Below, in pieces: positions 35,040 through 57,263 of a DNA stretch of 64,000 nt. The notes beneath the pieces were generated by a model. The model was given only the letters and a program-made list of their open reading frames with translations. It was not told the origin of the DNA and searched no databases. Positions within the stretch are counted from its first letter, which is position 1. Each line of letters begins with the position of its first letter. The position numbers and the translations under genes were made by a program. The stretch lies in the NCBI GenBank assembly GCA_016199835.1, contig JACQFX010000026.1, positions 1 through 64,000 of the forward strand. The letters are read 5' to 3'. The stretch is from Nitrosomonadales bacterium (GTDB taxonomy: Bacteria > Pseudomonadota > Gammaproteobacteria > Burkholderiales > Gallionellaceae).

Positions 35040-35220
35040 AAATATAAAGCAAAGCAAGTTCTGCTTTCCATTTTTCCTTGCTTTGCTTCCGCGCCTGGAA
35101 TGATCCCCCGGCATACAGTTTGTTTTTGAGGTTGCAGCGGTTTTCCGCGTGTGTACTTGCGCGCGAATATGTCACAATTCGCCACATCGCATCGTTGCGG
35201 AATCCGTGTCCATTCATTTT

Positions 35221-36876
35221 ATGTATCAGACCTATTTTGGCCTTGTCGCTGCGCCATTTTCCATAGCGCCGGATCCGCGTTACCTCTACATGAGCCAGCG
35301 CCACCAGGAAGCGCTGGCGACTTTGCTTTACGGTATGGGCAGCGATGGCGGGTTCGTATTGCTTACGGGGGAAGTGGGCGCCGGGAAAACCACGATATGC
35401 CGTTGCCTGCTTGAACAGATTCCAGATGCCTGTGATGTCGCTTATATTTTCAATCCAAAACTGACGGTACTGGAACTTCTTTCCACCATCTGTGACGAGT
35501 TCCATATTGCTTATCCGCAGGACACTTCCAGCATCAAACAATTCGTCGATCATATTAACGCTTACCTGCTGGAGTCGCATGCCAGAGGGCGGCGTGCAGT
35601 GCTGATCATTGATGAGGCGCAGAACCTGTCTGCCGATGTGCTGGAACAAATGCGGCTGCTTACCAATCTGGAAACCAATCAGCGCAAGTTGTTGCAGATA
35701 TTATTGCTGGGACAGCCCGAACTGGTGGATATGCTGGCGCGGCCGGAATTGCGTCAATTGGCGCAGCGTATCGTTGCGCGTTATCACCTGCGGTCACTGG
35801 ATAAGAATGAAGTCGCGGGATATGTGAAACACCGTCTGGAGGTGGCCGGTGTGCAGCGGCAACTCTTTCCGGATGCGCTTTGGGGCAAGCTGTACCAGCT
35901 AAGTGGCGGCGTTCCCAGGGTCATCAATGTGCTATGTGACAGAGCCTTGCTCGGAGCTTTTGTGCAGGGAAAGGAGCGGGTTGATAAATCGACTCTGGCG
36001 CAAGCAGCGCGTGAGGTGCTCAATCGGCGGCCACAGCAGCAATCATTTGGGCGCTATGCGCTTATTGCTGGCCTGGCTTTATTCCTGTGCGGCGTGCCGC
36101 TGCTCTTCATGTATCAGGAAGAACCTGTAGCTTCTGCGGCGGCAGTGCGAAAAGACATGGCAAGCCCCGGTAGTTTTGCTGCCATTCCCAATCCGCTTGC
36201 GCAAATTAAATTGCCTTCTTCAGGAGTGGCTGAAGAGGCGCAAGCCTTGCACGCTACTCTGGAGTTGCCGTCTGAGATGCCAGGCTCGCGCAGCAAGGAG
36301 GCAGCATTTACTGCTCTGTTCAAGGCATGGGGTGTGGACTACAGCGGTGATGGGGCTGCTTGCGGCCATGCGGAACTCCGGGGCTTGCAATGTCGTACAG
36401 CCCAGGGCGGGCTGGATGAATTACGCCAACTTAATATGCCGGCTGTGCTGCATATGCGGGACGAGCGGGGGCGGGAATTTTATGCGGCGCTGACCAAGCT
36501 TGATGCCCGCTCGGCAACTTTCTCCTTTGGCGCTCAAACCCAAAGGGTGGACATTGGCGCTTTGGCGCTTCAATGGTCTGGTGATTACACTTTGCTGATT
36601 CATCTGCCGCGAGATGTGCACAAGTATATCCAGAAGGGGGCGCGCGGTCCTGCTGTTGCATGGCTGGGCAAGCAGCTTGCGCAAGTGCAAGGGATAACAT
36701 TTAAAACAGACGGAGCGGTGGTCTTTGATGATGGTTTGAGGCGTCAGGTGAGGCAGTTTCAGTTGGCTCAAGGCTTGCCTCCTGATGGGGCTGTCGGCCC
36801 CAGGACTTTGGCACGCCTCAGCGCGGTAACCGATCAATTAGCCCCCAGATTATCGGGCGAGCAGGGGAGGAAGTAG
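35221..36876 (+). CDS. gspA: GspA/ExeA-like ATPase with peptidoglycan-binding domain
   Basis: A 551-aa inner-membrane AAA ATPase. In T2SS systems GspA with GspB remodels peptidoglycan for secretin insertion. The start MYQTYFGLVAAPFSIAPDPRYLY is the family N-terminus. Walker A is GEVGAGKTT at residues 50-58 and Walker B is AVLIIDEAQNL. A membrane helix lies at about 279-300 (YALIAGLALFLCGVPLLFMY). The periplasmic C-terminus ends in a PG_binding_1-type domain (FDDGLRRQVRQFQLAQGLPPDGAVGPRTL, in parts). ATG 35221 is preferred to the longer frame running into the upstream gap. Confidence 0.92.
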   Translation: MYQTYFGLVAAPFSIAPDPRYLYMSQRHQEALATLLYGMGSDGGFVLLTGEVGAGKTTICRCLLEQIPDACDVAYIFNPKLTVLELLSTICDEFHIAYPQDTSSIKQFVDHINAYLLESHARGRRAVLIIDEAQNLSADVLEQMRLLTNLETNQRKLLQILLLGQPELVDMLARPELRQLAQRIVARYHLRSLDKNEVAGYVKHRLEVAGVQRQLFPDALWGKLYQLSGGVPRVINVLCDRALLGAFVQGKERVDKSTLAQAAREVLNRRPQQQSFGRYALIAGLALFLCGVPLLFMYQEEPVASAAAVRKDMASPGSFAAIPNPLAQIKLPSSGVAEEAQALHATLELPSEMPGSRSKEAAFTALFKAWGVDYSGDGAACGHAELRGLQCRTAQGGLDELRQLNMPAVLHMRDERGREFYAALTKLDARSATFSFGAQTQRVDIGALALQWSGDYTLLIHLPRDVHKYIQKGARGPAVAWLGKQLAQVQGITFKTDGAVVFDDGLRRQVRQFQLAQGLPPDGAVGPRTLARLSAVTDQLAPRLSGEQGRK

Positions 36877-36878
36877 GG

Positions 36879-37643
36879 GTGTCATATATTCTCGATGCCA
36901 TCAAAAAATCCGAGCAGCAGCGTCAGCGAGCTGAAGTGCCGTCACTGTATATGGCGACGGTATCGGCTGGCGTGAAAAAACAGCATGCATTTTTGTTTTA
37001 TGGCGTTGCGGCGCTGATTCTGATCTGCGCCGGTATTTTTATCGGGTGGTTGCGCCCATGGCAGCAAGGTAATGTTGCCGGCGTGGCGGAAATTCGGAAT
37101 CGCAGTGTAAGTGAAGCGAACCCGCGTCATGCGGCCCCCCTTCAGCCTCCGGAGCTTGATAAGAGGTCGAACCCCGGACTCCCTCCGCCGACCTCGAAGT
37201 CGCCAGCAAATTTATTTGCTTTTCCATGGACGAGCGAGAAGAGCCTGGCGCAGGGTGGGTCATTGCCTGTTAACAATGGGGTGAAAGATATGGCGAGCAA
37301 TGCCTTGGTACAGAAGGTTCCTGAGCGAATGCTCACTGAGCCGATTCCATCGGCAGTTGAGAATGGCGCATCGCTTGAAACGGCAACCGTTGGCAAGCCT
37401 GCGCAGGAACCGGCGATAGTGGCTATAGAGGCGCTGCCGTTATCAATACAGCAAGAGCTTCCGAAATTAAATGTCTCGGGATATGCCTATTCAAATATAC
37501 CCAAGGAGCGGACGGTAGGCATTAATGATCGCTTGCTACAGGAAGGGGAATATCTGGCTCGGGGACTCAGGCTGGAGCGCATCGATCCGGATGGTCTGGT
37601 ATTCAGCTACAAGAAATATTATTTCCGCCAGAGTTTGCAATGA
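36879..37643 (+). CDS. gspB: GspB-like T2SS assembly protein
   Basis: A 254-aa bitopic protein: N-terminal cytoplasmic motif MSYILDAIKKSEQQRQR typical of GspB/ExeB, a membrane helix (FLFYGVAALILICAGIFIGWL), a Pro-rich periplasmic linker, and the C-terminal domain LNVSGYAYSNIPKERTVGINDRLLQEGEYL...VFSYKKYYFR, the PDZ/GspC-like homology region. A GTG start lies two bases after the gspA stop. It works with GspA to place the secretin. Confidence 0.9.
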   Translation: MSYILDAIKKSEQQRQRAEVPSLYMATVSAGVKKQHAFLFYGVAALILICAGIFIGWLRPWQQGNVAGVAEIRNRSVSEANPRHAAPLQPPELDKRSNPGLPPPTSKSPANLFAFPWTSEKSLAQGGSLPVNNGVKDMASNALVQKVPERMLTEPIPSAVENGASLETATVGKPAQEPAIVAIEALPLSIQQELPKLNVSGYAYSNIPKERTVGINDRLLQEGEYLARGLRLERIDPDGLVFSYKKYYFRQSLQ

Positions 37644-38068: not shown

Positions 38069-41000
38069 ATGAAGAAAGACCAGCGCTGTTCCTTAATGGT
38101 GGTTTCGATAGTACTCGCGGTTGCGTCGCAACTGTCTGCGAATGTGGCGCAAGCCGGTGCGGGGTGGGGCAAGACCACCAATGCGAGCAACGTGCCGATC
38201 CCGGTGCAGACCTATTACGCCAATAGCCCTGTGGGCGCGGTGCCGGCCTATGATCCGGTCACCGGCCTTCCCAAGCCCGCCCTTGATGCCAATGGCCAAC
38301 CTACTGGTCTTCCGGAGTTCGTCGATTCGGGTAAAGCGTTGCGCAAGTTCGTGGATACGCTGCCCGGGTTTGGTGCCGGCAACGCAAACGATCTGGGGCA
38401 ATATATTCCGGTAGCTGTTCCTGAGCATAACTGGGTTAACCCCGTTACCGGCGTTGCAACCGCTGACGATTATTATGAGATTGCGGCTGTTGAATATTCG
38501 GAAAAAATGCACAAGGACTTGCCCAAGGCAACGCACTTGCGTGGTTATGTGCAACTGGAAACGGCGGGCAACGCTGCTACGAGCAATCACGTTGCGCTGA
38601 CTTACCCCGATGGCAGCCCGATTCTGAATGCCGCCGGTCAGCAGGTTTTCGCGTATGACAATCCGCATCACCTTGGCCCGATCATCCAGGCACAAAGTGG
38701 TACGGTAGTGCGTGTCAAATTTACCAACTATCTGCCGGTGGGCGGCAATCTGTTCCTTCCTGTGGATCGGACGGTTACGGGCGCGGGTACGCTTGGGACG
38801 GATGGCAAAACCTACTATACCGAGAATCGTGCCGAGATACATTTGGTCGGTGGTCAATCGCCCTGGATTAGCGCGGGATCTCCTCATCAATGGGTGGCGC
38901 CCGCAGGCGAGGTTGCTGCCTATGCGGCTGGCGCAGGCAGGGGGCCTAGCGCACAGAATGTGCCTGATATGGCTGATCCTGGCGCGGGTTCGACTACGCT
39001 TTATTTCCCCAATAACCAGAGTGCGCGTTTTATGTTCTATCAGGATCGCACTTCGGGTTTGACGCGTCTCAACTCGTATGCGGGCCTCGAAGCGGGTTAT
39101 GTGATTACTGATCCGGCAGAGCAGTGGCTGGTCGATACCGGCGCAATTCCTGCTGACCAGATTCCCCTGATCATCGAAGACAAGACTTTTGTGCCCAACA
39201 ACATTGCCCAGCAGGACGCCAAGTGGATATGGGGGCAGCCGGGCGATCTCTGGTTCCCGCATGTATATGAGACCAATCAGGATCCACAGTCATTCGATGG
39301 TACCAACCCCGTAGGTCGTTGGGATTATGGCCCCTGGTTCTGGCCGATATTCGCTGCGACGTATCAACTGCCCGATACCAGTTTCGTGCCCGAAGCGTAT
39401 CACGATACACCCGTGGTTAATGGCACTGCCTATCCAACGTTGACAGTGGATCCCAAGGCCTATCGCTTGCGCATTCTGAACGCCAGCAATGATCGTTTTA
39501 TCAATCTGGGTTTTTATAAGGCAGACGGCACATTGAAGGTGCCGCAGCTTGATCAGAACGGCAATCCCGTAATCAGGGCAAATGGCGATCCGGTTATTTT
39601 TGAAAATACCGAAGTCAAGCTGGTTGCAGCAGCGCCGGCCGATGTGAGTGGTGCTCCGTTAACGCCGGTCAGCACTACCGCAAACGCGCCGTATGAGCCG
39701 AATTGCTTGTGCCAGTACCCCGATCTTCCCCAGCTCCAGCCTAATATTGCCGGCTTCCGTGCCTGGCCGGTAGATGGTCGCGTCGGTGGCGCTCCGGATC
39801 CGATGGCAGTCGGCCCCGACTTTATTGCAATCGGTAACGATGGTGGTTTCTTGCCTAATCCGGTGGACGTGCCGTCGCAGCCGGTTACCTATGAAACGAA
39901 CCGCCGCAGTATCACGGTGACCAACATATATGGTTACGGCATGCTGCTGGGACCATCCGAGCGTGCAGACACGATCGTTGATTTCTCCGCCTATGCGGGG
40001 CAGACGCTGATCCTTTACAACGATGCTCCGGCGCCTACCCCGTTCAATGATCAGCGTGTTGACTACTACACTGGCGATCCTGACCAAACCGACATCGGTG
40101 GCGCATATAGCACCCAGCCTGGCTATGGCCCGAATACGCGCACCATGATGCAGATCAAGGTGAATGTAAATCCGGTTGCGGCTACAGGTATTTTCGATGC
40201 CCGGGCATTGTTGGGTGCATTGCCAGCCGCTTACGCCGCATCGCAACCCATGCCTATCGTTCCGGAAGCGGCCTACAACACTGCATTCGGCACAAATGAT
40301 GCGGATAACTATGCGCACGTGGCCACCGGCTCGGTCGCCCAACCCAATCTGGACTTTACGGCAAGCGGCAATTTCACCATTGATCGCGTTGACGTGATTT
40401 CTTCGGGTGGGCAACTCGTGGTCGGAACAAATAACATCGTTGGGAATGCCGTGCCGGGTTCTGGTACGGGTTATGACCCGGCGAATCCGCCGACCGTAGT
40501 CTTTAATGACGGCAATTGCCTGTCGGCTGGCGCAACTCCTGCGCAGGCCTTTGCGACAGTTGATCCGAAGTCGCATCAAGTGACGGCTATTACCTTGGGC
40601 ACTCGCGGGCAGGCAACTGTGCCGACTTACCCTGGATACACATGTGCCCCGTTAATCACCTTCGAGGCTGCTTCCGGTATCGGTGCGCAAGCGACGGTGC
40701 ATACGACTGCCTCGCAATCCATCCTGGTGCAAGCCAAGGCCGAGCAGGAGTTGTTCGATGCATATGGCCGCTACAATTCGACAGGCGGCGTGGAACTGCC
40801 GCTCACCAGTGGCACAACACAGACCACGGTTCCCTTGAGCTACTATGATTCGCCAACGGACATTATCGCGGATGGCGAGACCCAGTTGTGGAAGCTGGTG
40901 GACAATGGTTTGTGGACCAACTCGATGCACTTCGATTTTGTTGACGTGCAACTGGTCAACCGCGTGGGCTGGGACGGAACCGTGAAGACGCCCGCAGCCA

Positions 41001-43423
41001 ACGAAGTGGGCTGGAAAGATACGCTGAGGCTGAATCCGCTGGAAGACGTTATCATCGCGATGAGAGCCAAGCGTTCGCCAGTGCCGTTCGGGATGCCGGC
41101 AAGCAGCCGCCTGAAAGATCCAATGGTGGCAGCAGGCAAGCCGGCTTCGGGCTTGGCCTTTATGGTTGACCCGGGGGTGGTGTCGCTTACAACAGGCAAG
41201 GCACTGTTGACGGCTACCAACGACGTAACCGATTACGATAACGAGTACGTCTGGAACAGCGCGATTCTGGGCCATTCGGAGGATGACCTCATGCGTCCTA
41301 TCGTATTCCACCCGACTGTGGCGATGCCCGATACGCCAACCAGACTGGCGTTCAACGGTCAAACCTTGTCATGGTTTGATGCTACGCTGCCAATGAATCC
41401 TAATACGCGAGGCAATCCGAAGAATGAAATCGGATTCAAGGTGGAGCGCGCAACGTATGTCATAGACAAGAAAACCAATTCCTATGTACCGGGTACGTAT
41501 ACGGTATTGGGAACCGCTGTTGCCAATGCGAACCGTTTCGTTGATCCAGGCTACAATTATTCGGATTATTCATACAGGGTTACTGCCTATAACGCCAAGG
41601 GCTCTGCCGCTGCGTCTATAGATGTATGGTCTCCGCTCGCCCCCCCGAGTGCGTTGCAAGTTTCCATCCCTGCGGCAACGGGAACCCCGGTGGTTTTGAG
41701 CTGGGTGGATAACGAAAATAGAGAGAGCGGATACACGGTAGAGGTGTCCACCGATCAGGGGGCTACTTATACTGCGCTTGCTACAGTTTCCAGCTCCAAG
41801 AGCTACCTGGCTGGTATAAGCAAAGGCGCGACGGTGACTTACACGGCTACGCCAACACTGGGCAGCGTTTACACCTATCGCGTCAGGACGATAAAAACGC
41901 AAGCCAGCAGTGCGAATCTGCTGTCTTCACCGCTGACCGTGGATGCTGATTTGTCAGCCACGACACCGGCTGCTCCGACAGGATTGGCTGTGGCTTACAC
42001 CGGCGGCACAACGGCTACCTTGAGCTGGACAGCCTCGGCTACAGCGGGCGTAACTGGCTATATCGTTCAGCAGTCGATGGACGGCGGCGCTACCTGGACT
42101 CAGGTGGGGAATATGCTCGCCGGGAATGCGACCAATGTCACTACTGCGGTGGAGAATGGCAACATTTATCAGTATCAAGTGATGGCGCAGATAGCCAAGT
42201 TTAATTCGCCTGTTACAACAGCGAATTCTGCGGCAGCCGGCCCGATTACTCTGGTAACGTTGCCCATAGCGCCGGTAGCCCCGTCCAGCATGACGGCTAC
42301 GCTGACTTCGGCCACATCGGCAGCACTGTCGTGGACGCCTTCGGCCACGAGCGGCGTGACTTACGTGGTACAGCGCAAGACTAATGCGGGTAACTTTGTG
42401 GCACTGGCTACCTTGCCTGCCGGCACCACGAGCTACACCGATGCGACCGTGGTGAATCGATCCACTTACACTTACCAGGTGGCTGCGGTTGCCACGAATG
42501 TGGCGGGAAGCACCAGTTCTACTTATACCGTGTCGAATAGCGTGAGCGTAAACCCGCCGGCCGCACCGGCTGTGCCAGCTAATCTGAGTGCGACGGCAAC
42601 TTCGGCCACCTCGGTTGCGCTAAGCTGGACGGCATCGAGCACGAGCGGTGCAAGTTACGTGATTCGACGCAGGGTCGGCGGTGGCGCTTATGCAGTGCTG
42701 GCTACCGTACCTGCGGATACGACGAGCTACGTCGACACGACCGTGGGGAATGGGCTCAGCTACACCTATCAAGTGGCTGCCGTTGCCACGAACGTGATAG
42801 GCAGCACCAGTTCTGCTTACGTTGCTTCGAACACCGTGAGTCTGGCTCCGACGAGGCCCTCGTCGGTGGCGGCAGTCGCTGCGAATACCTCTGTAGAATT
42901 GAGCTGGGTTGACAGCGGCATAACAGTGAGCGGCTATACGATCCAGCGCTCGGTGAATGGCGGTGCTTACGCTGTACTGACAACTATCGGTAGCACGACG
43001 AGCTATAGCGATACGTCGGTGGTGGCGGGCAGCACTTATAACTACCGGGTAGCCGCACAGTCGGGAACCGCCTTGTCGGCTTACGTGACTGCCACCAGGT
43101 CGGCAGCTCCGGCAGTACCGACGATAGGCACGACTACGGCAGGTGCGGCGGGTAGCAATCAGCTCACATTAAACTGGACGGATAATTCCAGCGATGAATC
43201 CGGCTTTACTGTGCAGCGCAGTGCGGGTACGGGCAGGAGTGCAGCGACTGCGACTTATGGCCCATTTACCACTATTGCCACACCGACTGTTACAGCCAAT
43301 ACGACGAGCTATGTCGATACGGGCCTTACTGCGGGCACTTTCTACCGTTACCGTGTCATGGCGAATGGCTTCCTGGGCAACTCGGCCAATAGCGGAAATA
43401 GTACGGGAGTGAAGGCGCCTTAA
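38069..43423 (+). CDS. MofA-like multicopper oxidase paralogue with lost copper ligands and seven Fn3-like modules
   Basis: A 1784-aa secreted protein. A signal peptide (SLMVVSIVLAVASQLSANVAQA) is followed by about 1,050 residues of MofA-type multicopper-oxidase cupredoxin domains, closely parallel to the next gene. Of the 11 ligand positions, 8 are replaced: HWH is H258-L-V260; HDH is Q325-D-R327; HPVHFH is N951...H954-F-D956; HCHxxxH is N1063-S-A-xxx-H1069, so the type 1 Cys is Ser. An enzyme of this kind should bind little or no copper. From about residue 1085 there are seven fibronectin-III-like modules of ~95-100 aa; modules 4 and 5 are near repeats at a 294-bp period. Probably a structural, adhesive or scaffold protein. 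Confidence 0.85.
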   Translation: MKKDQRCSLMVVSIVLAVASQLSANVAQAGAGWGKTTNASNVPIPVQTYYANSPVGAVPAYDPVTGLPKPALDANGQPTGLPEFVDSGKALRKFVDTLPGFGAGNANDLGQYIPVAVPEHNWVNPVTGVATADDYYEIAAVEYSEKMHKDLPKATHLRGYVQLETAGNAATSNHVALTYPDGSPILNAAGQQVFAYDNPHHLGPIIQAQSGTVVRVKFTNYLPVGGNLFLPVDRTVTGAGTLGTDGKTYYTENRAEIHLVGGQSPWISAGSPHQWVAPAGEVAAYAAGAGRGPSAQNVPDMADPGAGSTTLYFPNNQSARFMFYQDRTSGLTRLNSYAGLEAGYVITDPAEQWLVDTGAIPADQIPLIIEDKTFVPNNIAQQDAKWIWGQPGDLWFPHVYETNQDPQSFDGTNPVGRWDYGPWFWPIFAATYQLPDTSFVPEAYHDTPVVNGTAYPTLTVDPKAYRLRILNASNDRFINLGFYKADGTLKVPQLDQNGNPVIRANGDPVIFENTEVKLVAAAPADVSGAPLTPVSTTANAPYEPNCLCQYPDLPQLQPNIAGFRAWPVDGRVGGAPDPMAVGPDFIAIGNDGGFLPNPVDVPSQPVTYETNRRSITVTNIYGYGMLLGPSERADTIVDFSAYAGQTLILYNDAPAPTPFNDQRVDYYTGDPDQTDIGGAYSTQPGYGPNTRTMMQIKVNVNPVAATGIFDARALLGALPAAYAASQPMPIVPEAAYNTAFGTNDADNYAHVATGSVAQPNLDFTASGNFTIDRVDVISSGGQLVVGTNNIVGNAVPGSGTGYDPANPPTVVFNDGNCLSAGATPAQAFATVDPKSHQVTAITLGTRGQATVPTYPGYTCAPLITFEAASGIGAQATVHTTASQSILVQAKAEQELFDAYGRYNSTGGVELPLTSGTTQTTVPLSYYDSPTDIIADGETQLWKLVDNGLWTNSMHFDFVDVQLVNRVGWDGTVKTPAANEVGWKDTLRLNPLEDVIIAMRAKRSPVPFGMPASSRLKDPMVAAGKPASGLAFMVDPGVVSLTTGKALLTATNDVTDYDNEYVWNSAILGHSEDDLMRPIVFHPTVAMPDTPTRLAFNGQTLSWFDATLPMNPNTRGNPKNEIGFKVERATYVIDKKTNSYVPGTYTVLGTAVANANRFVDPGYNYSDYSYRVTAYNAKGSAAASIDVWSPLAPPSALQVSIPAATGTPVVLSWVDNENRESGYTVEVSTDQGATYTALATVSSSKSYLAGISKGATVTYTATPTLGSVYTYRVRTIKTQASSANLLSSPLTVDADLSATTPAAPTGLAVAYTGGTTATLSWTASATAGVTGYIVQQSMDGGATWTQVGNMLAGNATNVTTAVENGNIYQYQVMAQIAKFNSPVTTANSAAAGPITLVTLPIAPVAPSSMTATLTSATSAALSWTPSATSGVTYVVQRKTNAGNFVALATLPAGTTSYTDATVVNRSTYTYQVAAVATNVAGSTSSTYTVSNSVSVNPPAAPAVPANLSATATSATSVALSWTASSTSGASYVIRRRVGGGAYAVLATVPADTTSYVDTTVGNGLSYTYQVAAVATNVIGSTSSAYVASNTVSLAPTRPSSVAAVAANTSVELSWVDSGITVSGYTIQRSVNGGAYAVLTTIGSTTSYSDTSVVAGSTYNYRVAAQSGTALSAYVTATRSAAPAVPTIGTTTAGAAGSNQLTLNWTDNSSDESGFTVQRSAGTGRSAATATYGPFTTIATPTVTANTTSYVDTGLTAGTFYRYRVMANGFLGNSANSGNSTGVKAP
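42285..42850 (+). repeat. Tandem duplicated Fn3-coding modules
   Basis: Two adjacent fibronectin-III-like modules are similar at the nucleotide level. For example, GTTGCCACGAA recurs at 42488 and 42782, a period of 294 bp or 98 codons, and AGCACCAGTTCT follows in both. This indicates recent intragenic duplication, and such arrays may vary in number among strains. Confidence 0.7.
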
Positions 43424-43432
43424 TTCAAATCG

Positions 43433-43466
43433 CCGATGCCGGGGTAATCCTTGGCATCGGTTCTTT
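43433..43466 (+). terminator. Rho-independent terminator after the first oxidase gene
   Basis: Perfect 8-bp stem CCGATGCC (43433-43440) / GGCATCGG (43453-43460) followed by TTCTTT, 10 nt after the TAA. It should separate the transcript of the degenerate oxidase from that of the intact one. Confidence 0.75.
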
Positions 43467-43607
43467 GGATGCATTGATTGGATTCGGAATGGTTGCTAGT
43501 CGCGATTTCAAAGTAACGCTGGAAAAGATTTTTTGGGGAATTCGAAAAGGGAATTTAAGTTAGCCGGGCACGAGCGGTCAGCTTAATCAATCAGGGAGTT
43601 TGCAGAT

Positions 43608-46600
43608 ATGAAGAAAGATCAACGCCGTTCCTTCAAGCGGAATCCAATTGCTGCATCGATAGTGCTTGCGATGGCATCGCAACTGCCGATCAACGTGGCT
43701 TACGGTAATGCTGGCTATGGAACCAACACTGATATTTCGGGCAAGACAATTGCTGTGCCGACGTTCTTCGCCAACAGCCCGCAGGGTCTGCAACCCGCTC
43801 TGGATCCTTATACCCATCTGCCGTCTATAAATCCTGCCACAGGGAGTCCCTGGTCATCTGCGGCCGAGGCTCTGGCTGCGGGCGCACCGATGGTCGATAC
43901 GGGCAAGCCTATGCGCAAGTTCGTTGATGCGCTTCCCGGTGTTGACTCGGGTGGTCCGGGCGCGGGCATTCCTTTGGCGATAACTGAAAAATGGTTCAAT
44001 CCCATCACCAATACCCAAACGCAGGATGATTATTTCGAATTTGCCATCGTCCAATATACGCAACGCATGCATAGCGACTTGCCCAAGGAAACCACCTTGC
44101 GCGGCTATGTGCAGATCGAAACACCCGCTGTCGCAGCCGGTCTGGCTGATGCCGCCGGGGTGAAGAGTGAACATATCGCGCTGACTTATCCCGATGGTAC
44201 GGCGATCAAGGATATCAACGGGAACCCGGTTTACGCAGTACACAAGCCTTCATATCTGGGGCCTATCGTTGTGGCCTCCAGAGGTACGCCGGTGCGGATA
44301 AAGTATTACAACTATCTGCCTTACACCGACAAGGATGGGAAAAGTGTTGGCGCGCCTAACGGCGGCGAGATACCTCTGCCGGTCGATGAGTACATCGCAG
44401 GTGGCGGCCCGGTTCAGGATGCGCAGGGCAATCCGGTTAAAGACCAGAATGGCCAGCCAATCAAATTTCCGCAAAACCGCGTATCGATACACTGGCACGG
44501 TGGCGATGCGCCATGGATCAGCGACGGCACGCCGCATCAATGGATCGCTCCGGCGGGCGATGCAGCCTATTCGATAACGGACTCCACGCATCCCTATGGC
44601 TTGGGTAAGGGCGATGCGGTTCAGAACGTGCCTGACATGCCCGATCCCGGCCCCGGCGCAGAGACTCTGTATTGGCCGATGAATCTCAGTGCCCGTTTGA
44701 TGTTCTACCACGACCACACATCCGGCGAAACCAAGATCAATGTGTATGAAGGTGAGGCGGCAGGTTTGGTGGTGGTTGATCCTGTTGAGCAGAAACTGGT
44801 TAGCAGCGGGATCATTCCAGGCACGCTGCTGGGTGTGGGGATTCCGCTGATCATTCAAGACAAGACCTTTGTGCCGCAAAATATTGGCGCCAATCCGGTC
44901 GATGCCAGCGGCAATCCGGTGCAATCGCAGGATGCCAAATGGGCTTTGCAACATTGGGGACAGCCTGGCGATCTGTGGTTCCCGCACGTGTATGAAGTCA
45001 ACCAGGATCCTAACTCTATCGATGCGACCAATCCGGTGGGGCGCTGGGACTGGGGGCCGTGGTTCTGGCCGGTGTTTCCCGCACAGTATTCGCTGCCGTC
45101 AGGTGAGTATGGCGATGTGACGGCTACACCGGAAGCGTTTGTGGACACCTCGGTGGTTAACGGTATGGCTTACCCCACGGTGACCGTGGATCCGATAGCC
45201 TATCGTTTCCGCCTACTCAGCGTAGGCAATGACCGTACACTGAATCTGGGTCTGTATCAGGCTGTGGATGCTAACGGCGTTGTCTGCGATGCTGCAGCAA
45301 ATCCCAATCCCGCAGTCGCTGCGCCAGCTCCCGGACAGACGGATGCATTGGCTGCCTGTACCGAGCTGCGCATGGTTCCCGCAGCCCCAACCTCCAATTT
45401 GCCGGATGGCTGGCCGACCGACGGTCGTGCCGGTGGCGTGCCTGACCCTCTGACTGCGGGGCCCGATATCATCCAGATTGGTAATGAGGCGGGGCTGTTG
45501 CCTGCACCGGCGATCTGGAAGGCGCAGCCGATTTCCTTTGAACAGAATGTGCGCAAGATCACTATCTATAACATGCTGCGTCACCAGTTGTTGCTCATGC
45601 CGGCAGAGCGCGCTGACGTGATCGTCGACTTCTCCAAATACGCAGGCAAGACGCTTATTCTGTACAACGATGCGCCAGCACCTGCACCCGGTTTGGATCC
45701 GCGTGTAGACTATTACACGGGTGTGGGTGATCAGACTCCAAACGGTGGCGCATACGACACTTTGCCCGGTTATGGGCCCAACACCCGTACCGTGATGCAG
45801 ATCAAGGTTAATTCGGTGGCTTCTGGCGCGACGCCGGCCGCACCGTTCAATGTTGCTGCCCTGCAAGCTGCGCTGCCCACCGCTTATGCGGCTTCGCAAG
45901 CTGCGCCTATCATCCCCGAGTCGGCCTATAACACCGCGTTCAACACCAATGATACGGATAACTATGCGCGGATATTTACCGGCTCTGCTTCGCAGCCAGC
46001 GTTTACCTATACGCAGCCGAGCCTGGCCAATCAAGTACAGATAGGCACAGTCGATCCAAAAACAGGCTTGCTAACCCTGGCCAACTCGGTGGTGATTACC
46101 AATCCCGGCGCCGGCTATCAATCAGCTCCAACAGTGACGGTGACGGGCGGTGGCGGATCGGGGGCGACCGCTGTCGCGACGATAGGCGCGAGTGGAAGAG
46201 CCAAAGGGCAGGTAACATCGGTCACCATCACCAATGGCGGCTCCGGGTTCACCAGCGATCCCGTGCTGACCTTCTCCGGTGGCGGTGCGGATACTCAGGC
46301 GACCGCTTCTGTGGTGACTGTTCCGGCGGCGCAAAGAATCCGTGTGATCAACAAGGCCATTCAGGAGTTGTTTGATCCGGTATATGGGCGCATGAATGCA
46401 ACGCTGGCCGTAGAGCTGCCATATTCCAGTGCGACCATAGCGACTACTATCCCGTTGGCCTACATTGATGCGCCGATAGACAGCATAGATGGCATCAAGG
46501 ATGGTGAGACCCAAATCTGGAAAGTCACCCACAACGGCGTGGACGCGCATCCGGTGCACTTCCATCTGGTCAACGTGCAGGTGATCAATCGTGTGGCTTG

Positions 46601-47735
46601 GGATGGCGTGGTCATGCCGCCCGAGGCCAATGAATTGGGCTGGAAAGAAACGCTGCGCATGGATCCGCTGGAAGATGTGTATGTGGCGGTGAAAGCGGTG
46701 CACCCGATTACTCCGTTCGGTTTGCCAAAAAGTCAGCGTGTTCTGGATCCGTCGCAGTCGGTCGGCTCCCAACTGGGCTTTACCCAGATTGACCAACTTA
46801 CGGGTCAGGGGCCAACGTTCCAGACGTATCTCAAGAACGGGCTGGGCACGAGCGCTGTCAACGTTGCGACCACGGCGTACTCCAATCAGTTGACGGACTT
46901 CGACAATGAATATGTGTGGCATTGCCACATTCTGGGACACGAGGAAAATGACTTCATGCGCCCATTCATATTCCATCCGGATGTGGTTGTGCCGGATGCG
47001 CCAGGCTCGGTGGCTGCGAGTGGCAATAGCATAACCTGGACAGACCCGACTCCTTTTGGTGGGCAGGATAGTAATGGCATCCCAACTGCGGGTATCAATG
47101 CAAATTACACGACGCCTTACAGTAATCCGAAGAATGAAGTTGGATTCAGGGTGCAGCAACAAACTGCTCCGGGTGTCTTTACCACTGTCGCTACAGTGCC
47201 GGCAAACAGCACAAGCTGGACCGATGACTCCGGCCTGTTCCTGAACGCCGGGACGGCAGCACAGTTTACCGTGACGGCTTATAACGCGGCAGGCGAATCA
47301 GCACAGGGTGTGCCCTCTGCCCTGGGGGCCGCCACCGGTGCGGTTGGTTCTACGGCTGATGCGGCAGGAGCAACAGCGTCGGGTATTGTGTTCACGCCTG
47401 GAACGGTGGGTAGTGGCGGCGGCGGTGGTAACGTGCCGAATAACGCGCCGGCTCTTGATGCGCTTGCGTTCAGTGGAGCGAACCCGGGAACGACTGCCGG
47501 GGCGATTTCCTTGACCTGGGCTAACAATCCATCGAATGGAAATAACGTGACTGGATTCACACTTTCCTGGACACAAGACAATGGCACGCCAGCAAGCGCC
47601 ACGTTTGCATCGTCGGCATCGAGAGGAGCCACTGTGACCGAGCTGACTCCGAGCAACAGCTATACGTTTACGCTGGTGGCCAATGCACCAGCCGGAAATT
47701 CTCCTGGCGTAAGCATCACGATAACCGCGCCGTAA
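43608..47735 (+). CDS. mofA: MofA-like multicopper oxidase, all copper ligands present
   Basis: A 1375-aa secreted oxidase resembling Leptothrix MofA (large putative Mn(II) oxidase). A signal peptide covers about the first 31 residues. Copper motifs: H295-W-H297, H368-D-H370, H981-P-V-H984-F-H986 and H1105-C1106-H1107-xxx-H1111, the full type 1, 2 and 3 set. The axial position five residues after H1111 is Phe1116 with Met1117 next, as in high-potential laccases. A Gly-rich repeat region lies at ~820-900, and two Fn3-like modules at ~1130-1245 and 1277-1375. The leader and first codons match the preceding paralogue. The likely role is extracellular metal (Mn or Fe) or phenolic oxidation. Confidence 0.88.
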   Translation: MKKDQRRSFKRNPIAASIVLAMASQLPINVAYGNAGYGTNTDISGKTIAVPTFFANSPQGLQPALDPYTHLPSINPATGSPWSSAAEALAAGAPMVDTGKPMRKFVDALPGVDSGGPGAGIPLAITEKWFNPITNTQTQDDYFEFAIVQYTQRMHSDLPKETTLRGYVQIETPAVAAGLADAAGVKSEHIALTYPDGTAIKDINGNPVYAVHKPSYLGPIVVASRGTPVRIKYYNYLPYTDKDGKSVGAPNGGEIPLPVDEYIAGGGPVQDAQGNPVKDQNGQPIKFPQNRVSIHWHGGDAPWISDGTPHQWIAPAGDAAYSITDSTHPYGLGKGDAVQNVPDMPDPGPGAETLYWPMNLSARLMFYHDHTSGETKINVYEGEAAGLVVVDPVEQKLVSSGIIPGTLLGVGIPLIIQDKTFVPQNIGANPVDASGNPVQSQDAKWALQHWGQPGDLWFPHVYEVNQDPNSIDATNPVGRWDWGPWFWPVFPAQYSLPSGEYGDVTATPEAFVDTSVVNGMAYPTVTVDPIAYRFRLLSVGNDRTLNLGLYQAVDANGVVCDAAANPNPAVAAPAPGQTDALAACTELRMVPAAPTSNLPDGWPTDGRAGGVPDPLTAGPDIIQIGNEAGLLPAPAIWKAQPISFEQNVRKITIYNMLRHQLLLMPAERADVIVDFSKYAGKTLILYNDAPAPAPGLDPRVDYYTGVGDQTPNGGAYDTLPGYGPNTRTVMQIKVNSVASGATPAAPFNVAALQAALPTAYAASQAAPIIPESAYNTAFNTNDTDNYARIFTGSASQPAFTYTQPSLANQVQIGTVDPKTGLLTLANSVVITNPGAGYQSAPTVTVTGGGGSGATAVATIGASGRAKGQVTSVTITNGGSGFTSDPVLTFSGGGADTQATASVVTVPAAQRIRVINKAIQELFDPVYGRMNATLAVELPYSSATIATTIPLAYIDAPIDSIDGIKDGETQIWKVTHNGVDAHPVHFHLVNVQVINRVAWDGVVMPPEANELGWKETLRMDPLEDVYVAVKAVHPITPFGLPKSQRVLDPSQSVGSQLGFTQIDQLTGQGPTFQTYLKNGLGTSAVNVATTAYSNQLTDFDNEYVWHCHILGHEENDFMRPFIFHPDVVVPDAPGSVAASGNSITWTDPTPFGGQDSNGIPTAGINANYTTPYSNPKNEVGFRVQQQTAPGVFTTVATVPANSTSWTDDSGLFLNAGTAAQFTVTAYNAAGESAQGVPSALGAATGAVGSTADAAGATASGIVFTPGTVGSGGGGGNVPNNAPALDALAFSGANPGTTAGAISLTWANNPSNGNNVTGFTLSWTQDNGTPASATFASSASRGATVTELTPSNSYTFTLVANAPAGNSPGVSITITAP

Positions 47736-47784: not shown

Positions 47785-47897
47785 GACCATCTAACGAACC
47801 ATTCCATTTGGATCAAACTGGGCTGGCTGGCCTGAGTGAAGAACGCAAGTCTGGAATGGCCGGGATTCGATTGGGAAATTATCTGAGGAGAAGTCGC

Positions 47898-48587
47898 TTG
47901 TTGAAATACGCAATGATTTATCTGTGCAGTTTTGTTCTGGTAAGTGGCCAAGCGTGGTCCGAAGAAGCAAAGGAGATCAAGTCCGACAAAGACAAGCTGA
48001 GTTATAGCATTGGTGCAAGTATTGGAAAAAACCTAAAGAAGGAAACGGTCGACGTCGACCTGGGCCTGCTGATTAAGGGTTTGGAAAATGGATTGACTGG
48101 CGAGAAACTGGCTATTCCGGAAAAAGAAGTGCGTCAGGTCATGAGCGCCTATCAGAGCGAGTTGCGGAAAAAGCTCATGGTGAACAGGCAGCAGGCAGCA
48201 GAAGAAAACAAGAAAAAGAGCGAGGCATTTTTGGCTGAGAACAAGGCCAAGAAGGGGGTTACTACCTTGCCTAGCGGGGTTCAGTATACTATTATCAAAG
48301 AAGGTAAGGGCAAGAAGCCAACAGAATCGGATATGGTGGAAGTCAATTACCGAGGGGCGCTTGCCAATGGTACGGAATTTGATGCTACCGAGCCCGGCCA
48401 TCCAGCTAATTTGAAAGTATCGTCTCTCATAGCAGGGTGGAAGCAAGCGTTAAGCATGATGCCGGCAGGATCGAAGTGGCAAATCGTTATCCCGCCTCAA
48501 CTGGCCTATGGCGAACGCGGTGTGGGAAGTTATATCGGTCCCAATGAGGCTCTGGTTTTTGAGGTGGAGTTGCTAGCTATAAAATAA
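47898..48587 (+). CDS. mofB: FKBP-type peptidyl-prolyl isomerase, periplasmic (MofB-like)
   Basis: About 229 aa with a signal peptide (KYAMIYLCSFVLVSGQAWS), an FKBP_N-type helical dimerisation domain (LSYSIGASIGKNLKKETVDVDLGLLIKGLENGL, in parts) and a C-terminal FKBP domain keeping key residues: VNYRGALANGTEFDAT, LIAGWKQAL (Trp), QLAYGERG (Tyr) and LVFEVELL (Phe). This FkpA/Mip layout suits catalysing folding of secreted proteins. TTG at 47898 has GAGGAG at a 7-nt distance and gives a normal signal peptide; an upstream ATG is possible. Its position behind mofA parallels mofB in Leptothrix. Confidence 0.82.
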   Translation: MLKYAMIYLCSFVLVSGQAWSEEAKEIKSDKDKLSYSIGASIGKNLKKETVDVDLGLLIKGLENGLTGEKLAIPEKEVRQVMSAYQSELRKKLMVNRQQAAEENKKKSEAFLAENKAKKGVTTLPSGVQYTIIKEGKGKKPTESDMVEVNYRGALANGTEFDATEPGHPANLKVSSLIAGWKQALSMMPAGSKWQIVIPPQLAYGERGVGSYIGPNEALVFEVELLAIK

Positions 48588-48621: not shown

Positions 48622-49251
48622 ATGATGAAACTGAAATGGATATTACCGTTAAGCCTAGGATTGTTTATTGCTCAGGCAGGTGCGGAGCAGGCGGCTGCTG
48701 TTAATGGCAATCGTCCCGGCGCGGCAAAGCCGGAAGCTGGTGCACCTGTTAAATTGGAAATGTCGCCAAATTCTTTAGCAGAAGCAAATGAAGCCAACAG
48801 GAAACGGGTTCTCAAGGGCGGCAGGTTAAGCCCAAGGGAAAAAGCCGCAGTGTCAAAAGCCCAGGTTGCGAGTGCCAACAAGCCTGAAGGTGAGGCTTTC
48901 CTTGCGGCTAATCAAGCTAAAAAAGGTGTGATCACTTTGCCTAGCGGGGTGCAGTACAGGGTGCTGAGGGCTGGCAAGGGACAGAGCCCGACGGATAAGA
49001 GCCAGGTGATGTGCCGCTATACGGGGATGCTGATTGACGGCAAGACGTTTGATAAGACCGACAAGAAGCCGACTTTGCTGAACGTGGCGGGATTTGTGCC
49101 GGGACTGAAGGAAGCAGTCAAGCTGATGCAACCCGGAGCGAAGTGGGAGATTGTTATTCCTCCGCAACTTGCTTTCGGCTCCGTGGGCAATCGGGGCGTC
49201 GGGCCGAATGCCGTCCTGATTTACCAGATGGAAATCCTGAGCGTTAAATAA
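48622..49251 (+). CDS. Diverged FKBP-type isomerase paralogue
   Basis: 209 aa: signal peptide (WILPLSLGLFIAQAGA), a low-complexity Ala/Gly/Lys linker to about residue 90, then an FKBP domain. Compared with the preceding FKBP the pocket is altered: the Trp of LIAGW is Leu (FVPGL), the Tyr of AYG is Phe (AFG) and the Phe of LVFE is Tyr (LIYQ). It lacks the FKBP_N dimerisation domain. It may be a chaperone with little isomerase activity. An ATG pair at 48622 follows AAAGGACTTCG. Confidence 0.8.
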   Translation: MMKLKWILPLSLGLFIAQAGAEQAAAVNGNRPGAAKPEAGAPVKLEMSPNSLAEANEANRKRVLKGGRLSPREKAAVSKAQVASANKPEGEAFLAANQAKKGVITLPSGVQYRVLRAGKGQSPTDKSQVMCRYTGMLIDGKTFDKTDKKPTLLNVAGFVPGLKEAVKLMQPGAKWEIVIPPQLAFGSVGNRGVGPNAVLIYQMEILSVK

Positions 49252-49379: not shown

Positions 49380-50006
49380 ATGGCAAGCCAGGGATCTCAA
49401 ATACTGCGTGATGTACGGAAGAAGACTTCTGTGTTTGTTCTGGCTGCAGCTAGCCTGGCATTTACTTTCCCCGCTCAAGGCATAACGATTTATAGCCAGC
49501 CTGCGCTCTCTCCCGATAGTCCGAAGCCTATCGGTTCTGCTGTTACTGATCCGGATGGAAGCGATCAGGATGTAACAGCTTTCGATAATTTCACTTTGGG
49601 CAAATCTGCAATCGTCAGCAGGGTGACGTGGCGTGGGTCTTCCTCGTCTGACGCAATGTCCGGCTTTGCTGTCAAGGTTTATACATCCAATCCCGATCCG
49701 TATGGCCCGCCAGACACCACATCCCCGTTGGCGGAAATAAACGTGCCTGGCAAGGCAAATGAACAGCCGGTGGGGAGTGGCTGGTCGGATTACAGTGCAG
49801 ACTTCGCCAGGCCACTGGCGCTGACTGGCGGTGTGCAATACTGGATATCAATTGTGTCGATTCGGAATATTCCCTCAGTGTGGGGCTGGGCCAGTGGAAC
49901 TGGCGGTGATGGGAAATCCATCCAGTCTTACGCGGAATTTAAAATACTGGCAGCGCCGAATGACCGGGCATTTTCTTTGGGTAATGAAAGCGCTGAGCTG
50001 CGTTGA
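49380..50006 (+). CDS. Secreted beta-rich hypothetical protein
   Basis: About 208 aa. A signal peptide is evident (KKTSVFVLAAASLAFTFPAQG), followed by a beta-sandwich-like pattern (AFDNFTLGKSAIVSRVTWRG, FAVKVYTSNPD, YWISIVSIRN), similar to proteins with weak carbohydrate-binding or jelly-roll folds. No PEP-CTERM anchor is seen. I place the start at the ATG 49380, though no good RBS exists; the frame is open back to 49266. I do not recognise the family. Its place between FKBP and cytochrome genes suggests an extracellular role in the same system. Confidence 0.55.
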   Translation: MASQGSQILRDVRKKTSVFVLAAASLAFTFPAQGITIYSQPALSPDSPKPIGSAVTDPDGSDQDVTAFDNFTLGKSAIVSRVTWRGSSSSDAMSGFAVKVYTSNPDPYGPPDTTSPLAEINVPGKANEQPVGSGWSDYSADFARPLALTGGVQYWISIVSIRNIPSVWGWASGTGGDGKSIQSYAEFKILAAPNDRAFSLGNESAELR

Positions 50007-50158
50007 GTCGTTTGGCGTCTGCTTGTGCGATGTCCGGTTATATGGCGGACAAGAACTCGATAGTGAAGGTTATCCCGATGCATGACCCACAATTTGTTAA
50101 GCGCTATCCTGATCATTCCCGTTCGGGGATGAGATTAGGCCAGAGGCAGTGTGAATCC

Positions 50159-51979
50159 ATGATTCATAATGTTGCGGGTCTACGCCGGTTGATCGCCGGG
50201 CTTGTGTTTGTGCTTGGACTGTTCGCACCCGTGGAGGTGTTTGCACAAAATGCCGGGCATGAACCCGATGGAGTGGAAGCCGGTCGGCGCATCTACACTG
50301 AAGGGATACTCACGTCCGGGAAGGAGATGACCGGAACGCGCTTCGGGAGTACTGCGGTTTCAGGTGCCGTAGCAGCCTGTGTGAACTGTCATCGACGTAG
50401 CGGAATGGGGCAGGTTGAAGGCGATATTCAAGTGCCGCCCATTGCGGGAAAGTTTCTGTATGGGGCGCGTGAGGATAAACAAATCGCAACGATGGATCCG
50501 CGTGTCAGTAAAAGTTTTAATCAGGCCCATGATCCGTATACCGACACATCTTTTGCGGACGCAGTCATTCATGGCGTCAATATCCAGGGGCGGAAAATGA
50601 ACGTGGTTATGCCCAGGTATAACCTGAGCGAGCCCGACCTGAAAGCATTGTCAGCTTATCTGAAACAGTTATCGACCCAATGGTCGCCAGGAGTAAGCGC
50701 CGACAGGATTCGTTTCGCTACGGTGATTACCCCTGACGTGGATCCCTTGAGGCGCAAGGTGTTTGTTGACATGATGCAGACTATTGTTCACCAGAAGAAT
50801 GGAAGTACTGAGCCGGCAAGCAGCGGGCACTCGCGCCATCACATGGTATCAGCAGCCGAGTTGATTCTGGGAACCGAGCGTAAATGGGATCTGGATATCT
50901 GGGAACTGCATGGAGCGCCGGATAGCTGGGGCGCGCAGCTTGCAGAGTATTATCGCAAGCAACCTGTCTTCGCATTGGTTTCCGGAATTTCCGGTTCTAC
51001 CTGGCAACCTGTGCATGAATTTTGCGACCGTGAGCATATTCCTTGCTGGTTTCCGAGCATACCTCTTCCTGCCAGAAGCCAGTCGCATTATGCATTTTAT
51101 TTTTCCGATGGGGTGCGGCAGGAATCGGATGTATTGGCACGCCACTTATTGGGCAGCCAATCAAAACCAAAACGCCTGATCCAGATTTACCGGGATGATG
51201 CTGCAGAGCGTGCGGCTTCAGAAGAGTTGGAACATGCACTTGAAGGATCGGCAATCAAGGTTGAGAATCATCCGTTGAAGCTGCATGCGGAGGCGACAGA
51301 TTCATTGGCTGAAGCGCTCGCGGGTGTCAAGTCGGGCGATGCTGTAATGTGCTGGTTGCGCGAGAGCGATGTTGCGGAATTGAGGGCGCTGAAGCCTGTG
51401 CCGCGAGCCAATTATTATTTCTCTTCAAGGCTGGCAAACGCAGAGCGCCTGCCATTGCCCGCCAACTGGAAGGCGAACTCGCATCTGGTCTATCTGTACG
51501 AACTGCCAGAAAAGCGCGAATTGAGCCTGAACTATTTCCATGCCTGGATGAATCTGCGCAAAATTCCGATGGTCGATGAGCCATTGCAGTCGGAAGTTTT
51601 TTTCGCCCTGAGTTTCATGACCGATATCATCTCTGAAATGCTGGATAATCTGTACCGGGATTATCTGGTTGAGCGATCTGAAATCATGTTGAGCAAACGC
51701 GAGCGGGTCAAAGCAGAACAGGAAACCAGAGACAGATTGTATCTGGGTAGGGCTGGAGATCTGGTCAAGAAGCATGGGGCGATGACTGCCGATGAAAATG
51801 TGCGGCTCAAAATGCCGAATCAAGTGAGCGCTACGGACGTTACTCACGGGACAACGATTTATCCACGGCTTAGTTTGGGGGCTGAGCAGCGCTTTGCGTC
51901 CAAGGGGGGATATGTCTTGAGGTTTGCTGAAGGGCCGGATAATGAGTTGATCAATGAAAGCGGCTGGATTGTTCCTTGA
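50159..51979 (+). CDS. mofC: Periplasmic c-type cytochrome fused to binding-protein-like domain (MofC-like)
   Basis: About 606 aa. A signal peptide (LIAGLVFVLGLFAPVEVFA) is followed by a monohaem domain: C74-V-N-C77-H78 with a possible distal Met in MNVVMPRYNLSEPDLKALSAYL. From about residue 190 the protein resembles a periplasmic binding or bacterial extracellular-ligand domain (RIRFATVITPDVDPLRRKVF, FALVSGISGSTWQPV, KRLIQIYRDDAAERAASEEL). Haem-binding MofC lies behind mofAB in Leptothrix. It may carry electrons from the oxidase or bind its substrate. The start is uncertain; ATG 50129 and a far upstream TTG are alternatives. Confidence 0.75.
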   Translation: MIHNVAGLRRLIAGLVFVLGLFAPVEVFAQNAGHEPDGVEAGRRIYTEGILTSGKEMTGTRFGSTAVSGAVAACVNCHRRSGMGQVEGDIQVPPIAGKFLYGAREDKQIATMDPRVSKSFNQAHDPYTDTSFADAVIHGVNIQGRKMNVVMPRYNLSEPDLKALSAYLKQLSTQWSPGVSADRIRFATVITPDVDPLRRKVFVDMMQTIVHQKNGSTEPASSGHSRHHMVSAAELILGTERKWDLDIWELHGAPDSWGAQLAEYYRKQPVFALVSGISGSTWQPVHEFCDREHIPCWFPSIPLPARSQSHYAFYFSDGVRQESDVLARHLLGSQSKPKRLIQIYRDDAAERAASEELEHALEGSAIKVENHPLKLHAEATDSLAEALAGVKSGDAVMCWLRESDVAELRALKPVPRANYYFSSRLANAERLPLPANWKANSHLVYLYELPEKRELSLNYFHAWMNLRKIPMVDEPLQSEVFFALSFMTDIISEMLDNLYRDYLVERSEIMLSKRERVKAEQETRDRLYLGRAGDLVKKHGAMTADENVRLKMPNQVSATDVTHGTTIYPRLSLGAEQRFASKGGYVLRFAEGPDNELINESGWIVP

Positions 51980-52875: not shown

Positions 52876-52925
52876 AAACGACAGGTGTTTTTTACGAGAC
52901 TCACTTGAGGAGAAAAATTTACCTT

Positions 52926-53372: not shown

Positions 53373-53474
53373 TGGCCGCGCATGAGCCTTAGGGGAACAC
53401 AGATTTCCCGTGCAGCCCGGGGAGCTTCGAAGGGAATGTTTCGCATTACTCGACAAAAATAAATATTCTCGACT

Positions 53475-53498
53475 GACCAGTTCCTGGTCTGTGTTTTT
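53475..53498 (+). terminator. Hairpin with T-run between gspG and gspF
   Basis: Stem GACCAG (53475-53480) / CTGGTC (53484-53489), 3-nt loop, followed by TGTGTTTTT. It lies in the 167-bp gap and could partially terminate transcription so that the major pseudopilin is made in excess of the platform proteins. The stem is short, hence the modest confidence. Confidence 0.4.
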
Positions 53499-57262: not shown

Positions 57263-57263
57263 G

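Follow-up and report, generated by a model that had tools for sequence, protein, structure and literature searches.

The subject of this work is a pair of adjacent genes in a stretch of 64,000 nucleotides (the window), positions 1 to 64,000 of contig JACQFX010000026.1 from a Nitrosomonadales bacterium of the family Gallionellaceae (assembly GCA_016199835.1). A preliminary description, made from the sequence alone, had singled out two MofA-like open reading frames (ORFs) here, and the extents and lengths it gave hold good. We call the first gene pMofA and the second MofA:

38069..43423, + strand: pMofA, a MofA-like pseudo-oxidase of 1784 amino acids, predicted to be secreted (from ORF, translation, alignment, Pfam and model)
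43608..47735, + strand: MofA, an intact multicopper oxidase of the OmpB/MofA family, 1375 amino acids, with 11/11 ligands

Both genes lie on the + strand, 184 bases apart, and both have signal-peptide-like starts. Their products are 50% identical in an alignment that spans the whole multicopper-oxidase (MCO) domain, which in pMofA occupies approximately residues 33-1085 and is followed by a 700-residue tail with Fn3 modules. MofA reaches Pfam Cu-oxidase_2 with 33.3 bits (cut-off 20.4); pMofA stays below that cut-off with 16.5 bits, and fn3 dominates its Pfam matches (84.8 bits, six stretches). A search of the genome at E 0.001 returned no third MofA-like gene, only the pair. The four copper motifs of the OmpB/MofA family (HxH, HxH, HxxHxH and HCHxxxH) read as follows in the two genes:

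38840..38875, + strand: pMofA, former motif 1, H258-L-V260-G-G ... S268-A269-G (intact: H-W-H-G-G ... S-D-G)
39041..39049, + strand: pMofA, former motif 2, Q325-D-R327 (intact: H-D-H)
40919..40936, + strand: pMofA, former motif 3, N951-S-M-H954-F-D956 (intact: H-P-V-H-F-H)
41255..41278, + strand: pMofA, former motif 4, N1063-S1064-A1065-I-L-G-H1069-S1070 (intact: H-C-H-I-L-G-H-E)
44490..44525, + strand: MofA, motif 1, intact, with D306 (equivalent of CotA Asp116)
44709..44717, + strand: MofA, motif 2, intact, H368-D-H370
46548..46565, + strand: MofA, motif 3, intact, H981-P-V-H984-F-H986
46920..46943, + strand: MofA, motif 4, intact, H1105-C1106-H1107-I-L-G-H1111-E1112

MofA thus has every ligand (H295, H297, H368, H370, H981, H984, H986, H1105, C1106, H1107, H1111), whereas 8/11 equivalents are replaced in pMofA (V260, Q325, R327, N951, D956, N1063, S1064, A1065), which retains the ligand histidines H258, H954 and H1069. 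In the region of motif 1, V260 stands in place of a ligand His and A269 in place of the CotA Asp116 equivalent; from motif 4 the Cys and both flanking His are gone. The preliminary description had claimed just this, a second gene with all 11 ligands and a first with eight of them changed, and every residue number in it is correct on the translations. It had also named other His or Cys residues restoring the sites as what would speak against it. The alignment of the two sequences is free of gaps in all four motifs, and no His or Cys of pMofA at or beside the lost positions restores a site.

Relatives were collected with a search alignment of the window gene and its counterparts in genomes G029 and G035. 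A scan of 84,980 species genomes yielded 86 relatives, and we retained the 80 best (79 loci); the scan used two peptide patterns, one from the N-terminus of the pMofA clade, and the counts are not an estimate of prevalence. From 105 hits we read 98 genes, having dropped duplicate fetches (L022 twice, L023, L025) and three weak hits. For the alignment, 14 truncated, very long or near-duplicate rows were taken out and three added, which made 87, and the tree used 62 of these. A partial pMofA at locus L049 stands outside the tree and the conservation and dN/dS counts; L124, on another contig, is probably the C-terminal half of the same gene and was neither joined to it nor counted.

Every readable copper motif is intact in 82 of the 98 MofA-type genes (72 with 11/11 ligands, three with four motifs found by pattern, seven truncated). 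The other 16 have erased sites: 13 genes of the pMofA clade, in 11 genomes, and those at L050, L097 and L098. In the clade the four motifs are erased in 13/13 genes where readable, and the substitutions resemble one another: H297 has become V or I, H368 Q, H370 R, H981 N, H986 D, S or N, and H-C-H now reads G/N-S/T-A. The replacement of most copper ligands is therefore a conserved trait of the pMofA orthologues. Across the 12 full rows Q325, R327, N951, A1065 and H1069 are invariant, with V260 and S1064 each found in 11 and G1063 in 10. None of the readable frames of the 13 genes, from 11 assemblies, contains a stop. Two genomes of the same family have the same erased motifs, G029 (70% identical) and G035 (62%). 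The orthologues with the same losses that the preliminary description had proposed to look for do exist, and the disrupted frames it had named as counter-evidence are not seen in the readable pMofA genes.

Among the family's 158 genomes, eight contain a match at E 1e-50: pMofA in three, an independent dead copy in one, an unreadable fragment in one, and intact copies only in G020, G065 and G132. The match in G127 is a fragment without readable motifs. An order-wide search of 399 genomes at E 1e-60 returned only the genome of the window and G065, both already in the set. Among plasmids, 48 records matched the MCO distantly, always over less than 80% of the query; the best listed has 31.7% identity over 41%, and 2/48 fall in the 60-80% identity band, outside those listed. 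As an aside, locus L118 of G065 (468-14408) is a single frame of 4647 residues with an intact MofA domain at its start, and L117 (7808-11125), about 5 kb from it, holds a second, short intact MofA (1106 amino acids).

The changes are concentrated at the copper sites. Over the 159 columns conserved at 95% or more in the 72 intact genes, the pMofA of the window is changed at 8/11 ligand and at 8/148 other columns (Fisher p 2e-7), and the same test gives 2e-4 for L050, 0.003 for L097 and 0.002 for L098. If the columns are instead those at least 95% conserved in the 64 intact genes outside the clade of chromosomal partners (n=173), pMofA keeps 148, a column counting as kept when conserved in 11/12 rows or better, and the partner clade keeps 161. 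Eight of the 25 columns that pMofA has lost are the replaced ligands, and some of the rest adjoin them.

The second shell is lost too: D306, E1112 and D979 of MofA correspond to A269, S1070 and W949 of pMofA. The position of D306 is Asp in 72/72 intact genes and Ala in 15/15 aligned dead genes (12 pMofA and 3 others), as well as in the partial L049, while that of E1112 is Glu in 72/72 intact genes and lost in 15/15 dead rows. D306 aligns with the Asp of a related oxidase, and A269 with CotA position 116, which is Ala, as in pMofA, in the engineered D116A chain 4a66. E1112 comes right after the last motif His, like CotA Glu498 (numbering from PMC2944330). Asp116 of CotA hydrogen-bonds His105, which binds the type 2 copper, Glu498 serves in proton channelling, and Ala or Asn at the Asp position of Fet3p and CueO causes a drastic drop in activity (PMC2944330). 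Because the Cys-His wire and both acids of oxygen reduction are gone, we strongly infer that the usual oxidase function is not to be expected of pMofA.

In a tree of 62 proteins, from which the ligand columns had been removed, the 12 full-length pMofA form one clade (100/100) nested within the MofA family, and eight intact chromosomal neighbours form another (100/100). The two clades are sisters with support of 95/63 only, the nearest alternative to the partner clade at this node being the intact L024 and L029. That one duplication gave rise to precisely these two clades is therefore probable without being certain. At 0.21, the stem branch of pMofA does not exceed that of the partners, at 0.25. 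The dead copy at L050 (13318-20277) has its own intact neighbour as sister (100/99); likewise the two dead copies of the Desulfarculales, L097 (13599-17186) and L098 (10554-14138), are sister to the intact genes next to them (100/100). These are tandem copies as well, with ligand states in a different mix (HHHQHYNTNGW at L050, THHQHHEGTMH at L097/L098). Since the dead copies group with their own intact neighbours, MofA seems to have been duplicated, and one tandem copy disarmed, at least three times independently. The approximately unbiased (AU) test, applied to groups picked after the tree was seen, rejects all 15 aligned dead rows as one clade (p 3e-70) and also rejects the grouping of the pMofA clade with L050 (p 0.018). 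None of the three dead lineages keeps the ligands at positions 370, 986, 1105, 1106 and 1107, which in the CotA scheme presumably comprise three ligands of a single type 3 copper, one ligand of the second type 3 copper and the type 1 Cys.

Within the order Desulfarculales (39 genomes), nine have matches at E 1e-40, with a dead copy in G555 and G556 only; the other matched genomes are intact in all readable motifs, several being truncated. Three weaker matches in G555 and G556 have one internal stop each (G556:C33, G555:C57, G556:C65). The dead copy at L097 has a repeat insert, such as LFVDFGAWGLWKWDG, within its MCO domain (residues about 490-760), and matches to this region, some with stops, occur elsewhere in the same genomes.

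The preliminary description had proposed a test of the ratio of nonsynonymous to synonymous substitution rates (dN/dS) on the first gene. Over the 728 codons common to all 20 genes, in 28 matched, non-independent comparisons among 8 clusters, the median dN/dS is 0.156 (0.107-0.234) for pMofA and 0.139 (0.076-0.268) for the intact partner, values that are rough, with synonymous sites near saturation (ps 0.40-0.70 in the matched sets). Comparisons of pMofA genes with one another give a median of 0.151 over 62/66 pairs, four saturated pairs being excluded. The mean dN over the shared codons is 10% higher in pMofA than in the partner. The dN of the two correlate (r 0.68), which is expected because the pair is inherited together. 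With a value of about 0.15, similar to that of the active partner, the codons indicate that pMofA is under nearly the same purifying selection and is not decaying. That agrees with the preliminary description, which had argued that selection maintains the gene in a non-enzymatic role and that it is not in decay; the relatives, the open frames, dN/dS and the adjacency support it.

The fold also seems to be kept. AlphaFold models of the MCO domains have a predicted TM-score (pTM) of 0.79 and a mean predicted local distance difference test score (pLDDT) of 72.8 for pMofA, and 0.77 and 70.0 for MofA, both from alignments that mixed dead and intact members. The model of pMofA superimposes on CotA with Z 26.0 (467 residues, 2.5 A), that of MofA with Z 24.9 (472 residues, 2.6 A), and pMofA matches SufI with Z 22.6 over 407 residues. 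Judged by these models, pMofA has the MCO fold.

A MofA-type gene adjoins pMofA, on the same strand, in 12/13 cases. Eleven of these 12 neighbours are intact in all readable motifs (8 with 11/11, 3 partial with 7/7); in the twelfth, L027, a MofA tail of the partner clade precedes pMofA, and only this tail is on the contig. The intergenic gaps, measured to the first possible start codon in 10 pairs of the clade, range from -4 to 277 bases. The intact gene comes first in 9/11 pairs seen fully or partly, and pMofA in the window and L040. The arrangement occurs twice in each of two genomes (L026 and L037; L030 and L027), a MofA-type gene being accompanied by a dead copy every time. A third genome carries a further intact gene, L122, after which another gene begins, and the 9 best matches of this gene start all belong to pMofA. 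The other MofA copies of pMofA genomes are intact in their readable motifs (L123, L126 and L127 complete; L125 and L128 partial). The alignments and gene order show a conserved pseudo-oxidase that shares its locus with an apparently active MofA, an arrangement with three separate origins.

The neighbours of the pair in the window are:

35149..37643, + strand: type II secretion genes resembling GspA and GspB, immediately upstream
47808..48587, + strand: FKBP-type prolyl isomerase, MofB-like, recurring beside the pair
48622..49251, + strand: second FKBP-type prolyl isomerase
49266-50006: protein of 246 amino acids without a Pfam match, preceded by the prolyl isomerases and followed by the MofC-like gene
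50003..51979, + strand: MofC-like cytochrome gene, of the architecture given for MofC-like proteins in PMC5566968
52117..52875, + strand: SCO1/SenC copper chaperone
52905..63016, + strand: type II secretion genes (GspG, GspF, GspE, PilN/PilO-like, secretin, pseudopilin-like)

Some frames within 52905..63016 have no Pfam match. The secretin of this part (59029-61530) is of the type II secretion type and has a C-terminal match to a cohesin domain. Relatives of the 246-residue protein occur only at L023 and L024 among 23 loci compared. One or two FKBP isomerases, a MofC-like cytochrome, SCO1, GspG, GspF and GspE recur around the pair, in varying order, where the contig reaches; in the window the mofB/mofC-type neighbours, that is the isomerases, the cytochrome and SCO1, lie downstream of it. 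According to PMC5566968, OmpB/MofA clusters of iron oxidisers have a MofB prolyl isomerase and SCO1 as neighbours, and MofC is a cytochrome c with a periplasmic binding domain. A search for the MtrB/PioB family found none in the window's own genome.

The 50 bases around the two start codons (38045-38094 and 43584-43633) are 88% identical, including the CAGGGAGTTTGCAGAT leader. We considered a special leader or gene conversion and rejected both: a ribosome-binding stretch like CAGGGAGT precedes many relatives, and the two clades are unmixed in the tree. A scan for promoters and terminators was uninformative, with 5 promoter-like sites against 9.1 expected by shuffling and 11 terminator-like ones against 11.7. 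Elsewhere in the window two long open frames overlap on opposite strands, 16552-20445 (+) and 17449-19854 (-); the latter, of 801 amino acids, matches no Pfam family at E 1e-5.

The gain of Fn3 modules, on which the preliminary description had leaned, is real in the window, with 6 Pfam fn3 stretches in pMofA against 1 in MofA, yet the argument is weak, for the gain is not common to the clade. Of the six pairs scanned, the other pMofA have 3 stretches at L026, 1 at L030, none passing alone at L032 and L039, and no match at L040, and the intact partners have 1 at L030 and L040, none alone at L039, and no match at L026 and L032. We therefore rejected Fn3 gain as the defining change. What the clade does share is length. 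In 10/10 pairs measured the C-terminal tail of pMofA exceeds that of the partner, the difference being 92 to 578 residues, with a contig end cutting short one of these comparisons. Complete pMofA members have 1630 to 2510 residues. In the window the tail is rich in Ser and Thr and free of His. Apart from the tails, L040 (2356-9672), L036 (2298-9827) and L043 (4303-11517) are some 400 residues longer than the window pMofA in the part from motif 1 to motif 4; at L040 this excess consists of repeats of the type GSGYTSAPTVTF between motifs 2 and 3.

What could such a protein do? We lean towards the view that pMofA is a secreted pseudo-oxidase acting as a structural partner of the active MofA. In this scheme a gene for a MofA-type multicopper oxidase would have been duplicated to give pMofA, which keeps the MCO scaffold but has lost most type 1 and type 3 copper ligands, and with them the Cys-His electron wire. 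Its export would very probably go through the type II secretion system suggested by the gene order, and it would share the prolyl isomerases of the locus with MofA. Outside the cell the two would form a hetero-oligomer with pMofA as the copper-free structural partner, and the longer tail of pMofA may help to hold the active oxidase on the cell surface, the sheath or a metal-oxide mineral. We favour the role of a partner because of the near-constant pairing, its repetition in doubled clusters and the repeated evolution. A wider reading is more tentative and, on balance, doubtful: that MofA-type metal oxidases became, at least three times, a two-part machine of an active copper subunit and an obligatory copper-free one, the dead subunit being needed for assembly, anchoring or metal handover. 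Under this reading, the five shared ligand losses and the recurrent replacement of Asp by Ala next to the type 2 copper would point to selection having stripped one subunit of its oxygen chemistry.

Several observations weigh against a partner role, and we wish to state them together. The genome of L028 (G546) has no intact MofA at E 1e-30; the contig ends just past the MCO domain, with nothing MofA-like upstream, and the partner may be missing or unassembled. Among the bacteria with the 82 intact genes, many lack a dead twin within the stretch read, which means that MofA as such can do without one, and even within pMofA genomes the extra intact genes L123, L126 and L127 are unaccompanied by a dead copy in the stretch seen. 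The Desulfarculales dead copies are almost tailless (14 amino acids), hence anchoring by a tail is not the general reason for dead copies. Half of the replaced sites (4/8) are invariant, which is about the average of the protein (41% of columns), and therefore no special new function is indicated at these sites. Intact relatives in the alignment of pMofA may pull its model towards the canonical fold. Finally, over all alignable codons including inserts the dN of pMofA is 1.27 times that of the partner.

This last figure, together with the excess of 10% over shared codons, could be taken as a sign of ordinary decay, a duplicated oxidase drifting without function, and loss of the active site is indeed what drift would allow first. 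We give this explanation almost no credence. The readable parts of 13 genes in 11 assemblies are free of stops and dN/dS is near 0.15, the same replacement residues are kept (Q325, R327, N951 and A1065 in 12/12), 148/173 family-invariant columns are retained, and the stem is 0.21 against the partners' 0.25. A more serious competitor, which we nevertheless consider unlikely, is that pMofA is an independent protein for mineral binding, adhesion or the sheath, which uses the MCO fold as a rigid module and owes its location to shared secretion or regulation. The longer tails, the Fn3 modules of some members and the Ser/Thr-rich, His-free tail in the window all agree with it. It does not sit well with a MofA-type gene adjacent in 12/13 cases or with pairing repeated in genomes with two clusters, and the separate tandem pairs in a lineage with a tailless dead copy point to a link with the enzyme itself.

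The residues left in pMofA invite the thought of new metal chemistry, with H258, H954 and D956 as a mononuclear Fe or Mn site, for instance of a Mn(III)/Fe(III) carrier for MofA. H258 and H954 are retained and correspond to CotA His105 and His422 (the latter we take to be a type 2 copper ligand), and D956 could complete a set of two His and one carboxylate. The clade speaks differently: among the 12 aligned pMofA, H258 is Arg in one (and in the partial L049), H954 is Arg in two, the position of D956 is Asp in only 6/12, Ser in 5 and Asn in 1, and the Asp116 equivalent is Ala in all 12. As a conserved feature we reject such a site, since all three residues vary within the clade, and the wider idea seems improbable to us. 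More improbable still is a regulatory decoy, a pMofA that binds substrate, a partner cytochrome or chaperones and so tunes the maturation or activity of MofA outside the final complex; the co-located prolyl isomerases, SCO1 and MofC-like gene would suit it, but a secreted protein of 1630 to 2510 residues is a costly decoy.

A gene such as pMofA would have practical consequences. A study of Leptothrix ochracea sought metal oxidases by their copper motifs (PMC11412304), and a pangenome survey of Gallionellaceae used BLAST (PMC10734462). Surveys of the former kind would miss pMofA, and those of the latter could count it as an oxidase, so that genomes may be misread. Whether Mn or Fe is the substrate of MofA in these bacteria is still described as an open question in PMC11412304. 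If it is true that MofA needs a copper-free partner, expression of MofA alone may fail. Three independent losses of the same catalytic parts would also amount to a natural experiment in how a pseudoenzyme arises beside its active parent.

In the literature searched, with subscription papers and preprints outside its scope, we found no report of a copper-less twin of MofA. By the analogy of SufI/FtsP, a copper-free MCO is already known as a kind; what is new, as far as we found, is that it occurs among the extracellular metal oxidases of the OmpB/MofA family, stands beside an active twin, has lost the same second-shell acids and has arisen repeatedly. MofA of Leptothrix discophora, whose homologue L065 is in our tree, and OmpB of Geobacter, extracellular multicopper oxidases of a type associated with the oxidation of manganese and iron, are of the same sequence family as pMofA, are likewise predicted to be secreted and lie in a similar gene set (MofB, MofC, SCO1), whereas pMofA has erased copper sites and stands beside an intact twin. 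The CotA laccase of Bacillus is the closest solved fold and supplies the numbering of ligands and second shell, but it is an active laccase of half the size; by their titles, engineered CotA D116A and E498 variants in the PDB resemble two natural changes of pMofA. SufI/FtsP of Escherichia coli, according to PMC2661564, keeps 2/12 copper residues, was found without metal, has an occluded pocket and is proposed to be a scaffold. Like it, pMofA has, by its model, the MCO fold with most copper ligands replaced, while SufI/FtsP is a periplasmic protein of cell division without tail modules. Presumably SufI/FtsP also arose separately and is not encoded beside an active twin. A vertebrate counterpart is offered by coagulation factors V and VIII, which resemble ceruloplasmin and have become non-enzymatic cofactors of another protein, in their case a protease.

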